From positions 1 to 25,973 of IMG/VR virus record IMGVR_UViG_3300040810_000016: DNA of 25,973 nt; one strand, given 5' to 3'. Positions within the stretch are counted from its first letter, which is position 1. Each line of letters opens with the position of its first letter. This DNA is from a virus. Shown one piece after another: positions 13,419 through 22,595 of this stretch. The notes beneath the pieces were generated by a model. That model did no database searches and was not told the origin of the DNA. It was given only the letters and a program-made list of their open reading frames with translations. Made by a program: the position numbers and the translations under genes.

Positions 13419-13426
13419 TATAAATA
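13419..13426 (+). promoter_or_regulatory. T4-type late promoter for the neck/packaging operon
   Basis: Exact TATAAATA between the last fibre gene and gene 13. The expected start point, near 13432, lies within the left arm of the hairpin at 13427-13452. No other late box is seen until 18449, so this promoter probably drives genes 13 to 17. Confidence 0.8.
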
Positions 13427-13452
13427 GTTCCAGAAATCAAACAATCTGGAAC
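13427..13452 (+). promoter_or_regulatory. Stem-loop between late promoter and gene 13
   Basis: GTTCCAGA (13427-13434) and TCTGGAAC (13445-13452) form a perfect 8-bp stem with a 10-nt A-rich loop. There is no T-run after it, so it is not a typical terminator. RNA begun at the promoter would contain only part of the left arm; read-through RNA from the fibre operon would contain the full hairpin 8 nt before the gene 13 ATG. It may mark a 3' end or block translation on read-through RNA. Confidence 0.6.
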
Positions 13453-13460
13453 TATTAACT

Positions 13461-18508: not shown

Positions 18509-20446
18509 ATGGCTTTTCAAGTATCACCAGGCGTAAATGTAAGTGAGATTGATCTCACTACGGTGGTGCCAGCCGTATCGACCACCACTGGTGCCCTTGC
18601 TGGACACTTCAAATGGGGTCCTGTTGACCAAAGAGTTCTCATTAGCAGTGAAGACAATCTTGTTTCTGTCTTCAACAAACCTAATGCGAACACAGCGGAT
18701 GACTTTTTTACGGCTGCCAACTTTCTTGCATATGGTAATGCACTGTATGTAACAAGGGCTGTTACTTCTGCAAATAATGCAACAACAGGTGGCACAGGCG
18801 CATACATTACCAATGAAGATTACTACAATGAGACATACACCAACACGATTAATCATGGTGATTGGGTAGCAAAATATCCAGGCATTATTGGTAACTCGCT
18901 AAAAGTTTCTGTATGTCACAGTGCAAATGCATGGGAAAGTTCAGTAGCAACTAACTACTATGCAACACAAAACTCAAAGACAGTCACACTTGCTGGTGAT
19001 GGTCAAGGTACTTCCAACACTGAAACACAGTTTATTGTTGGTGACAGAATCTTGCTCGGTCCAGATAAAGAAGCAAGAAAGATCGCTTCTCTATCAGGCA
19101 ATACAATCACACTCACAAGTGCATACGGTGGTAACACAGTTTCTAACTACTCACCATCATTGACTCGTCAGTGGGAGTTCTATTCAAACTTTGATAGAGC
19201 GCCTACAACTACAACATACGCTAACACAGTCAATGCTCAAGGTGACGCAATCCACATTGCTATCGTTGATGAAGATGGTGTAATCACTGGTCAGTCTGGT
19301 TCAGTTCTTGAGACATATCCAAATGTTTCTCAAGCACCTGATGCAACCTCTGAACAGGGTGGAACACTTTACTACAAAGATGTTGTCAATCAACAATCTG
19401 CTTGGGTATGGTGGGGCGCACACAACACAGCAATGTCAAAAGCAGGCACAAGAGCAGATTTGACGAACAACGGTACGGCTGGTTCTGGTACAAACTATCC
19501 AGGCAATGACTTGCCTCGTTCAAACAGCATGTCAGGTGGTAAAGATGGTTCTGCATCAGACGCCGCTTACATTTCTGCATACAACAAGTTCAGAGATTCT
19601 GATACTGTGGATGTATCACTAATCCTTGGTTCTGCTTCAAGTTCAACTGTTGCTGTACACATCATCAACAATATTGCTGAACATCGTAAGGATTGTGTTG
19701 CTGTTATCTCACCAGAAAGAGCCGATGTTGTAAACAACAATGGTTACGAAGGTAAAGAAACAGATGACGTTATCTCATTCAGAGATGGCCTACCATCATC
19801 CTCATATGCAGTTATGGACTCAGGCTGGAAATACCAGTATGACAAGTACAATGACGTTTATCGTTATGTACCTCTAAATGGTGACACTGCTGGACTTATG
19901 GTTCAAACAGACTTGACCCGTGATCCATGGTATTCGCCTGCTGGCTTTAATCGTGGTAACGTAAAGAATGTTATCAAACTTGCTTACAATCCAAGCAAGG
20001 CTGACAGAGATGAACTTTACAAGAAGGGCATCAATCCAGTTGTAACATTCCCAGGCCAAGGTACGGTTCTATTTGGTGACAAGACAATGCTTGATCAACC
20101 AAGTGCATTTGATCGTATCAATGTTCGTAGATTGTTTATCGTACTTGAGAAAGCAATCAGCACAGCATCTAAGTTTACACTCTTTGAGTTCAATGATGAG
20201 TTCACTCGTTCACAGTTTAAGAACTTGGTTGAGCCATTCCTAAGAGATGTACAAGGTCGCCGTGGTATCACGGACTTCCAAGTTGTCTGTGATGGAACAA
20301 ACAACACTGGCGAAGTCATTGATAGAAATGAGTTTGTGGGTGACATCTATGTCAAGCCTGCTCGTTCAATCAACTTTATCCAGTTGAACTTTGTTGCTGT
20401 AAGAACCGGCGTAGAATTTTCAGAAATCGTTGGTAGAGCGACATAA
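18509..20446 (+). CDS. 18: Contractile tail sheath protein gp18 (645 aa)
   Basis: T4 gp18-type sheath subunit that polymerises around the tail tube and contracts on infection (T4 659 aa). N-terminus M-A-F-Q-V-S-P-G-V-N-V-S-E-I-D-L-T and G-A-L-A-G-H-F-K-W-G-P are family hallmarks. The C-terminal sheath core shows Y-N-P-S-K-A-D-R-D-E-L-Y-K-K-G-I-N-P-V, R-I-N-V-R-R-L-F and S-I-N-F-I-Q-L-N-F-V-A-V-R-T-G. I choose ATG 18509 over the in-frame ATG at 18503 because the Shine-Dalgarno AGAAGGAG (18493-18500) is 8 nt from 18509 but only 2 nt from 18503. As an abundant late product it has its own promoter. Confidence 0.96.
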   Translation: MAFQVSPGVNVSEIDLTTVVPAVSTTTGALAGHFKWGPVDQRVLISSEDNLVSVFNKPNANTADDFFTAANFLAYGNALYVTRAVTSANNATTGGTGAYITNEDYYNETYTNTINHGDWVAKYPGIIGNSLKVSVCHSANAWESSVATNYYATQNSKTVTLAGDGQGTSNTETQFIVGDRILLGPDKEARKIASLSGNTITLTSAYGGNTVSNYSPSLTRQWEFYSNFDRAPTTTTYANTVNAQGDAIHIAIVDEDGVITGQSGSVLETYPNVSQAPDATSEQGGTLYYKDVVNQQSAWVWWGAHNTAMSKAGTRADLTNNGTAGSGTNYPGNDLPRSNSMSGGKDGSASDAAYISAYNKFRDSDTVDVSLILGSASSSTVAVHIINNIAEHRKDCVAVISPERADVVNNNGYEGKETDDVISFRDGLPSSSYAVMDSGWKYQYDKYNDVYRYVPLNGDTAGLMVQTDLTRDPWYSPAGFNRGNVKNVIKLAYNPSKADRDELYKKGINPVVTFPGQGTVLFGDKTMLDQPSAFDRINVRRLFIVLEKAISTASKFTLFEFNDEFTRSQFKNLVEPFLRDVQGRRGITDFQVVCDGTNNTGEVIDRNEFVGDIYVKPARSINFIQLNFVAVRTGVEFSEIVGRAT

Positions 20447-20449
20447 ATA
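20442..20449 (+). promoter_or_regulatory. Possible variant late promoter for gene 19
   Basis: CATAAATA differs from TATAAATA only at the first base and overlaps the gp18 stop codon. It lies 22 bp before the gp19 ATG, and the Shine-Dalgarno ACAGGAG (20457-20463) follows. It may be a weak promoter allowing extra tail-tube expression, or chance. Confidence 0.45.
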
Positions 20450-20471: not shown

Positions 20472-21020
20472 ATGGCTTTTAATGTAAACGAATTTTCAGG
20501 TGCGCTCAAATCGGGCGGTGCTAGAAATTCATTGTTCCAAGTAAATATCACGAATCCGATCAACGGTGTCGCTGATGTTCAAGTACCTTTTCTCTGCAAA
20601 GCCGCTCAAATCCCAGCCGCTACTTTGGGTGTAGTCGAAGTTCCATACTTCGGCCGCACCGTAAAGATTGCTGGTAACAGAACATTTGCAGAGTGGGCTC
20701 CAACGATCATCAACGATGAAGATTTTGCTATTCGTAACGCCATGGAACAATGGTCAAACTCAATCAACTCTTTCCAAGGAAACCTAAGAACAACTGGTGG
20801 TTCTGCGCCTGCTTTGTATAAAGCAAACGCTCAAGTCATTCAGTATTCTCAGACAGGTGAACTTCTAAGAGAGTATAACTTTGTTGGTATCTTCCCAACT
20901 GAAGTTAGCACGATTGACCTAGCATGGGAAACTGAAGGCATTCAAGAATACACTGTCACTTTCCAGTATGACTATTGGGAAGTTTCTGGCGGCAATACTG
21001 GCAACGCCGGCGGCATCTAA
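20472..21020 (+). CDS. 19: Tail tube protein gp19 (182 aa)
   Basis: T4 gp19-type tube subunit (T4 163 aa) that stacks in rings to form the inner tail channel. Landmarks: N-E-F-S-G-A-L-K-S-G-G-A-R-N-S-L-F-Q-V, P-F-L-C-K-A-A-Q-I-P-A (about 39-49), P-Y-F-G-R-T-V-K-I-A-G-N-R-T-F (about 57-71), and the C-terminal V-G-I-F-P-T-E-V-S-T-I-D-L-A-W-E-T. It ends in a short Gly/Asn-rich tail. It directly follows gp18 and is followed by a strong terminator, so 18-19 form one unit. Confidence 0.95.
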   Translation: MAFNVNEFSGALKSGGARNSLFQVNITNPINGVADVQVPFLCKAAQIPAATLGVVEVPYFGRTVKIAGNRTFAEWAPTIINDEDFAIRNAMEQWSNSINSFQGNLRTTGGSAPALYKANAQVIQYSQTGELLREYNFVGIFPTEVSTIDLAWETEGIQEYTVTFQYDYWEVSGGNTGNAGGI

Positions 21021-21042: not shown

Positions 21043-21084
21043 GGGGATGCCTATAAATAGTACAAAGGCATCCCCTATTTTTTC
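21043..21084 (+). terminator. Rho-independent-type terminator whose loop contains a late promoter
   Basis: GGGGATGCC (21043-21051) and GGCATCCCC (21067-21075) form a perfect 9-bp, G+C-rich stem, followed by TATTTTTTC (21076-21084). This is the shape of an intrinsic terminator for the 18-19 transcripts. The 15-nt loop is TATAAATAGTACAAA, that is, the late promoter for gene 20. Transcripts begun there would start inside the loop and lack the left arm, so they should escape termination. Confidence 0.85.
21052..21059 (+). promoter_or_regulatory. T4-type late promoter for gene 20, inside a terminator loop
   Basis: Exact TATAAATA beginning at the first loop base of the terminator hairpin. The expected start is near 21065. 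The mRNA leader would hold the right stem arm, the U-tract, and the weak Shine-Dalgarno GAGG (21088-21091) before the gp20 ATG. Confidence 0.8.
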
Positions 21085-21098
21085 ATTGAGGATATAAA

Positions 21099-22595
21099 AT
21101 GGCAGTAAATCTATTCGGTTTTAAGATTGGTAAAGATGTTGATGAAAAACAACTCGACAATTTACCTTCATTCGTACCACCAGCACAAGATGATGGAAGC
21201 ATCACTGTTGCTGAAGGCGGTGCGTTTGGCACAACCGTAGACTTAGATAATACAGTAAAGAATGAAGCACAACTTATCACAAAATATCGTGAAATGGCTC
21301 AACAACCAGAAGCGGAAAGAGCGATTGACGATATTGTAAATGAGGCTATTGTTGCTGATGATAATCAAGCACCGATTGAGATTGTGCTTGATGATATTCA
21401 ACAACCAGAATCAATCAAAAAGAAAATTCGTGAAGAGTTTGAATATATTCTCAAGTTGATGAAGTTCAACTACAGAGGATATGATATCTTTCGTCACTGG
21501 TATGTTGATGGTAGAATATACTATCATATCGTCATTGACGTAAAGAATCCAAGATTAGGTATTAAAGAACTAAGACATATTGATCCTCGCAAAATCAAAA
21601 AAGTTCGTAAAGAGAAGCGTGATCCAAATCGTAGACTAAATGAAGAAACTCTTGTCAAGAAGTATGATGAGTTCTTTGTATATCAGTCTAAGGGCATTAC
21701 ATCAGAAGGAGAGGGTCTAAAGATCGCTCCAGATTCAATCGCTTATTGTCACAGTGGATTGCTAGACAATCGTAACTACACAGTTTTATCGTACCTTCAT
21801 AAAGCACTGAAACCTCTTAATCAGTTGCGTATGCTAGAAGATGCGACAGTTATCTATCGCTTGGCCCGTGCGCCTGAGCGTAGAATCTTTTACATTGATG
21901 TGGGTAACTTACCTAAAGCGAAAGCGGAACAATACTTGCGTGACATGATGGTCAAGCACAAGAACAAACTTGTATATGATGCAAATACAGGTGAAGTAAG
22001 AGATGACAGAAAGTTTCTTACAATGCTTGAAGATTATTGGTTGCCTCGTAGAGAAGGTGGTAGAGGAACAGAAATCACTACACTTCCAGGCGGTCAAAAT
22101 CTAGGTGAGATGGAAGATGTCAACTACTTCAAGAATAAACTCTATGAAGCATTGAATGTTCCTACCACAAGACTACAAGCAGATGGTGCTTTCAATCTCG
22201 GTCGTGCATCAGAGATTACAAGAGATGAACTAAAGTTCTCTCGTTTTGTAAACCGTTTGAGAACTCGCTTCTCAGAAATATTTCATATTCTACTTGAGAG
22301 ACAACTTCTACTCAAAGGTGTGATTACAGCACAAGAGTGGAAAGAAATGCAAGATGATATTCATTATGATTTTATGGAAGATAATCACTTTGCTGAACTG
22401 AAAGATAGTGAAATCCTTGAGAATAGATTACGTCTACTTGCTGACGTTGATCAGTATACAGGTAAATACTTCTCTGTTTCATGGATTCAAAAGAATGTTC
22501 TTAGACAATCTGAAGAAGATATTGAGCAAATTCAACAAGAGATTGAAGACGAGGGTGGCGGTGAGATTGAAGGTGATGAAGATGAATTTATGTAA
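21099..22595 (+). CDS. 20: Portal protein gp20 (498 aa)
   Basis: T4 gp20-type portal (T4 524 aa): the 12-subunit ring at the head vertex through which gp17 pumps DNA and on which the prohead nucleates. Landmarks: K-Y-R-E-M-A-Q-Q-P-E-A-E-R-A-I-D-D-I-V-N-E-A (about 62-83), F-R-H-W-Y-V-D-G-R-I-Y-Y-H, L-R-H-I-D-P-R-K-I-K-K-V-R, R-A-P-E-R-R-I-F-Y-I-D-V-G-N-L-P, and L-N-V-P-T-T-R-L near the tunnel region. The C-terminus is strongly acidic (E-D-E-G-G-G-E-I-E-G-D-E-D-E). The first gene of the head-assembly unit, it has its own late promoter. Confidence 0.96.
   Translation: MAVNLFGFKIGKDVDEKQLDNLPSFVPPAQDDGSITVAEGGAFGTTVDLDNTVKNEAQLITKYREMAQQPEAERAIDDIVNEAIVADDNQAPIEIVLDDIQQPESIKKKIREEFEYILKLMKFNYRGYDIFRHWYVDGRIYYHIVIDVKNPRLGIKELRHIDPRKIKKVRKEKRDPNRRLNEETLVKKYDEFFVYQSKGITSEGEGLKIAPDSIAYCHSGLLDNRNYTVLSYLHKALKPLNQLRMLEDATVIYRLARAPERRIFYIDVGNLPKAKAEQYLRDMMVKHKNKLVYDANTGEVRDDRKFLTMLEDYWLPRREGGRGTEITTLPGGQNLGEMEDVNYFKNKLYEALNVPTTRLQADGAFNLGRASEITRDELKFSRFVNRLRTRFSEIFHILLERQLLLKGVITAQEWKEMQDDIHYDFMEDNHFAELKDSEILENRLRLLADVDQYTGKYFSVSWIQKNVLRQSEEDIEQIQQEIEDEGGGEIEGDEDEFM

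Follow-up and report, generated by a model that had tools for sequence, protein, structure and literature searches.

A T4-type late promoter nested in a covarying RNA hairpin at the gene 19–20 junction of uncultured T4-like phages

The stretch of DNA analysed here is a 26-kb virus record (IMG/VR IMGVR_UViG_3300040810_000016; 25,973 nucleotides, nt), which is referred to as a whole as the window and to which all positions refer. The window carries the late structural block of a T4-like phage, with tail-fibre-like genes followed by genes 13, 14, 15, 16, 17, 18, 19, 20, 21 and 22. The identities of gp18 (18503), gp19 (20472) and gp20 (21099) were confirmed by BLAST against annotated phages. The element in question lies in the intergenic sequence between the stop of gene 19 (21020) and the start of gene 20 (21099), which reads GGGGATGCCT-ATAAATAGTACAA-AGGCATCCCC, then TATTTTTTC, and combines a hairpin with a T4-type late promoter (Table 1).

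The arms GGGGATGCCT and AGGCATCCCC pair perfectly to give a stem of 10 base pairs (bp) and a loop of 13 nt; the preliminary description of this DNA had recognized the perfect stem but sized it at 9 bp with a 15-nt loop. G-C pairs account for 7/10 of the stem, and a T-rich tail, TATTTTTTC, in which the T run is interrupted by an A, follows directly on the 3' side. The promoter box had been placed at the start of the loop, and it does occupy the loop, but the first T of TATAAATA is also the final base of the left arm and pairs with A21066. The late promoter consensus is TATAAATA, or NATAAATA in cyanophages (PMC1524935, PMC2984593), and the exact TATAAATA at 21052–21059 stands 39 nt upstream of the ATG of gene 20, the short distance upstream of a late structural gene expected of a T4-type late promoter. 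The window contains 10 TATAAATA boxes, all on the + strand, against 1.5 expected. Among nine boxes tested, only the one at 21052 was enclosed by a perfect 10-bp stem, the others having stems of 3–7 bp, and with shuffled flanks a stem of at least 10 bp was obtained for approximately 0.09 % of boxes.

Table 1. Features of the gene 19–20 junction in the window, and the corresponding nested form in a cultured isolate
Feature	Coordinates	Strand	Sequence	Basis or remark
Gene 19, tail tube	20472..21020	+		56 % identical to gp19 of phage DLP6
Hairpin left arm	21043..21052	+	GGGGATGCCT	Perfect inverted repeat; covariation in relatives
T4-type late promoter box	21052..21059	+	TATAAATA	Exact match; first base in stem, remainder in loop
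Loop (13 nt)	21053..21065	+	ATAAATAGTACAA	Predicted +1 at 21065, from the T4 -13 to -6 rule (PMC1524935)
Hairpin right arm	21066..21075	+	AGGCATCCCC	Would form the 5' end of gene-20 transcripts
T-rich tail	21076..21084	+	TATTTTTTC	7 T in 9
Shine-Dalgarno-like GAGGA of gene 20	21088..21092	+	GAGGA	Outside the hairpin (21043–21075)
Gene 20, portal protein	21099..22595	+		BLAST
Methylophilales phage Melnitz, nested 19–20 form			TTTTACCC-GACTAAATAGAA-GGGTAAAA	Cultured isolate

To compare the junction among relatives, 87 distinct 19–20 junctions were assembled from loci found by gp19 and gp20 scans. The TAAATA core of the box was present in 57 of these, and 33 distinct strong stems were found that varied widely in sequence (e.g. 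GGGGATGCC, TGGACAGCACT, GAGAGCCGTTAT, TAAGGGATC and AGGGGCGACT) while the box was retained. When the flanks of these related junctions were re-paired, own flanks had a mean score of 10.3, compared to 5.4 for flanks swapped between junctions and a maximum of 6.4 in 10,000 permutations. Within the window's own group of eight near-identical phages (gp19 95–100 % identical), three pairs of an 8-pair core were changed on both sides, 100 % of cells remained paired, and sliding the partner strand destroyed the pairing. The arms for this count were excised by hand from the junctions before alignment, free alignment having shifted one arm by a base. The preliminary description had anticipated that alignment of related junctions could reveal a covarying stem around an invariant box, and covarying stems with an invariant TAAATA were indeed found. 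This pattern indicates that the hairpin is maintained at 19–20 junctions through covariation and, as anatomy, makes a hairpin with a nested gene 20 late promoter at the end of the 18–19 message well supported.

Strong enclosing stems were found at 52/73 late boxes before gene 20 and at 2/310 boxes before other genes (13, 18, 19, 22, 23, 3 and others, from the relatives' loci), with a shuffled-flank null of 0.55 %. The near confinement of the stem to boxes before gene 20 makes it a feature of the 19–20 junction and not of late promoters generally; the latter possibility was rejected, as the other junctions lacked such stems. Weak stems are common in short AT-rich intergenic regions, so a coincidence of chance or composition was also considered, but the expectation of approximately 0.1 % per box for such a stem, the covariation and the site specificity leave it next to no probability, the comparative data already contradicting it.

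The substitutions within the stems were used to distinguish pairing in RNA from pairing in DNA. At imperfect stem positions, G.T combinations outnumbered A.C combinations by 22 to 7 (P=0.008, to be taken as a guide only, the sequences being related), and by 11 to 2 in the nested set. An excess of G.T over A.C is the signature of pairing in the sense-strand RNA, as G.U, as opposed to a DNA cruciform or operator. The suggestion in the preliminary description that the DNA strands could form a cruciform exposing the promoter is disfavoured by this result. A DNA-level element of that kind, or a protein-bound dyad operator covering the promoter, would account for the perfect inverted repeat flanking the box, but stem sequences diverge widely among relatives, contrary to a sequence-specific operator, no dyad is present at other late promoters of the same phages, and G.T is favoured over A.C, all of which makes a DNA-level role highly improbable.

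The position of the promoter relative to the stem was then considered. In T4 late promoters the box occupies -13 to -6, with its last A at -6 (PMC1524935), which predicts a transcription start at 21065, the last base of the loop. For the 43 nested junctions that could be scored, the median offset between the predicted +1 and the first base of the right arm was 0, and the predicted +1 was 3' of the left arm in every case. This would leave new gene-20 RNA without the left arm and unable to form the hairpin, in agreement with the earlier proposal that initiation falls in the loop. T4-type late promoters depend on gp55, gp33 and gp45. The window ends before reaching a gene for the late sigma factor gp55, but three relatives (Mosig, Melnitz and P-SSM2) have annotated gp55 homologues.

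A similar geometry is known from the leader hairpins of T4 gene e, I-TevI, segB and mobE, which have a late promoter within or close to their 5' arm, so that late transcripts lack that arm and cannot fold while read-through transcripts can (PMC3014915, PMC2988022). This likeness raises the possibility of a translational switch of the gene e or I-TevI type (PMC3014915, PMC2988022), with the hairpin hiding the gene 20 ribosome site in read-through RNA and late transcripts exposing it. The 19–20 element differs from these systems: in the window its ribosome site is not part of the stem, and the hairpin ends an upstream late message; the right arm usually ends about 15–25 nt upstream of the gene 20 start codon. 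Predicted accessibility of the gene 20 ribosome site in 46 relatives was 0.52 in read-through and 0.57 in new RNA (P=0.11), which is not a consistent difference. Together with the position of the ribosome site, this argues against such a switch, and the reading was rejected for the 19–20 hairpin as very unlikely.

Two other overlaps of a late promoter with a hairpin were observed in the window. At 13419–13456, the left arm of a 12-bp hairpin (AATAGTTCCAGA / TCTGGAACTATT) shares bases with the late promoter that precedes gene 13, and the right arm of this hairpin nearly reaches the start codon and contains the only Shine-Dalgarno-like GGAA. By its sequence this hairpin looks like a translational switch of the gene e or I-TevI type, and it is kept in the relatives L097, L110 and L111, with a changed stem in L110 and L111. 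At 33–66, the loop of a hairpin (GGACTCTTT / GGAGAGTCT) contains the late promoter at 41, and the right arm of the hairpin includes the GGAG ribosome site of the gene at 69; in read-through RNA this hairpin would be predicted to hide that site. Separately, a late-type box, CATAAATA, at 20442–20449 shares bases with the end of gene 18, immediately upstream of gene 19, and boxes like it precede gene 19 in many relatives. Its position directly before gene 19 suggests that gene 19 may have a late start of its own.

In a tree of gp19 and gp20, the window's clade comprised 41 rows (Shimodaira–Hasegawa-like approximate likelihood ratio test, SH-aLRT, 99), 40 of which had a nested box with the TAAATA core. 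The nested class of this tree includes eight rows, among them the five of the L101 group, that have short or mismatched stems at the box and were assigned to it manually. Nesting was also seen in a second clade, of five rows (support 100), and in a few single lineages that include the isolate Melnitz and, less strongly, the isolate Mosig. At least three changes are required by the well-supported branches. The box lies to the left of the 19–20 hairpin in Citrobacter phage Miller, Klebsiella phage KMI7, Aeromonas phage avDM1 and an RB49-like phage, to the right of it in T4-type RB14 and the cyanophages ACG-2014f and ACG-2014d, and is missing from the junction in DLP6 and Vibrio phage QD01. The T4 (RB14) junction thus has the same two components as that of the window, a hairpin and a TATAAATA box, but there the hairpin GGGGAGAAATCCCC comes first and the box stands downstream, side by side with it rather than nested. 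In other T4-like phages, distant ones included, the junction usually retains the hairpin even when the box is elsewhere. This persistence, while the box shifts or vanishes outside the clade, makes the hairpin the wider feature and nesting a lineage-specific arrangement. The nesting noted in the preliminary description is conserved in the clade, but its single 42-bp stop-and-start element would not be obligatory across T4-like phages.

The sole exception in the nested clade was L024 (GGGAGGCATTTATTGCCTCCC), in which the stem encloses a short loop region that gives AATAAATG when read on the opposite strand, as though an inversion of the loop between its arms had taken place. Two related phages, L116 and L118, have no hairpin at the 19–20 junction and carry a perfect sigma-70 promoter (TTGACA-17 nt-TATAAT) before gene 20. 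No near DNA matches were found among cultured phages, and no Rfam family matched at its curated score, the only match being sub-threshold and on the minus strand (E value 0.44; 23 bits compared to the 85 needed).

The potential of the hairpin for termination was assessed from its tail, its score and its likeness to established terminators. In the relatives, 4.6 of the 9 positions 3' of the stem were T, compared to an intergenic background of 30 % T. T was more frequent in the 3' flank than A was in the 5' flank (P=0.001), with no matching A-rich flank before the stem, and enrichment on the 3' side only is as expected of a terminator in the sense direction. The window and its nearest kin carry T-rich tails, and in half of the distinct nested stems the T run is no longer than two. 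T4-like Rho-independent terminators such as that after gene 23 (PMC1524935) likewise combine a GC-rich stem with a T-rich tract directly behind it, in the sense direction; the gene-23 terminators of phages of this kind, however, have 4–6-nt loops and about 7 T in 9 (7.1), whereas the 19–20 element has a 13-nt loop occupied by a promoter and tails that vary among relatives. A consensus terminator scan, with a loop limit of 8, could not list the window hairpin. The 'textbook terminator' of the preliminary description holds for a stem followed by a T-rich tail, but not for the large loop, the modest tails of the clade or the mostly negative terminator scores, and a strong terminator was only partly upheld by these scores and by calibration on the gene-23 terminators.

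A leaky terminator or a 3'-end stabilizer of the 18–19 message is the best fit for the hairpin. It may instead act solely as an mRNA 3'-end stabilizer or processing boundary of that message, with the promoter in the loop because intergenic space is short. This is a lesser but substantial possibility, consistent with T tails that are generally modest in the clade and poor in some of its members, with the different appearance of true terminators in these phages and with the persistence of the hairpin without the box in other T4-like phages. There is also a precedent in T4, where RNA ends can reflect stability instead of termination and many 3' ends of early transcripts are regarded as stable RNA ends (PMC6024815). 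The confinement of T enrichment to the 3' side and the T-rich tails of the window and its nearest kin speak against a stabilizer without any termination.

We consider it probable that the element is an intercistronic RNA hairpin with a nested T4-type late promoter, serving as a leaky terminator or stabilizer of the 18–19 message and as the start of the gene-20 message. The hairpin, nested box, covariation, site specificity and sense-strand RNA signature rest on sequence, and from them we infer the start point, the termination or stabilization and the expression logic. Transcripts arriving from genes 18–19 would hold both arms, so that the stem could fold and mark the 3' end of the 18–19 message, whether by intrinsic termination of a modest, leaky kind or by blocking 3' exonucleases; leaky termination is plausible in the window given its T-rich tail. 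RNA polymerase with gp55 would start from the nested box at about 21065, and the gene-20 transcript, beginning with the right arm alone and having no hairpin, would be neither terminated nor marked. In T4, the copy numbers required of gp18 and gp19 greatly exceed that of gp20, and the predicted outcome is that the abundant tail proteins (gp18 and gp19) and the rare portal protein (gp20) would be controlled separately.

Several observations weigh against this interpretation. The d'Aubenton-Carafa score D was negative in 52/53 nested cases and about -3 in the window, only 1/53 exceeding the Escherichia coli cut-off of D above 0. The 19–20 tails are weaker than those of the gene-23 terminators (4.6 compared to 7.1 T of 9) and the loops larger. 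The spacing of box and right arm differs by several bases among junctions, which leaves the predicted start without a fixed position relative to the stem, and the relatedness of the junction sequences means that the permutation and G.T tests are not fully independent. Finally, a subclade (L101, L104, L188, L193 and L198) has a short mismatched stem, CGTGAGTC / GACACACG, around the box and no T tail, making intrinsic termination an unlikely role for the hairpin there.

A stronger proposal is that nesting is a selected stop-and-restart device, in which a polymerase terminating on 18–19 would be left over the next late promoter and re-used by gp55 for gene 20, so that the outputs of tail and head genes would be coupled in a set ratio. 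RNA polymerase that has released its RNA at an intrinsic terminator can reinitiate nearby (PMC6978380, PMC6978322), and a promoter inside the terminator would be the nearest possible. Such recycling has been shown for bacterial polymerase on model templates; for the 19–20 element and for gp55-polymerase it would be hypothetical, and we regard this coupling as unlikely. No described promoter-in-terminator-loop element was found in a literature search that omitted most subscription journals, and the best reading of the 19–20 element is as a new variation on the T4 promoter-in-hairpin arrangements.

The 19–20 junction of this group of uncultured T4-like phages thus presents a regulatory element that is small, site-specific and strongly conserved, and in which a late promoter and a 3'-end RNA hairpin use the same bases. 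The occurrence of the box to the left of, inside or to the right of the hairpin, or its absence, provides a natural series for testing how T4-like phages set different outputs of the neighbouring tail and portal genes. Should termination and initiation be coupled at this site, it would also be a natural test bed for polymerase recycling.
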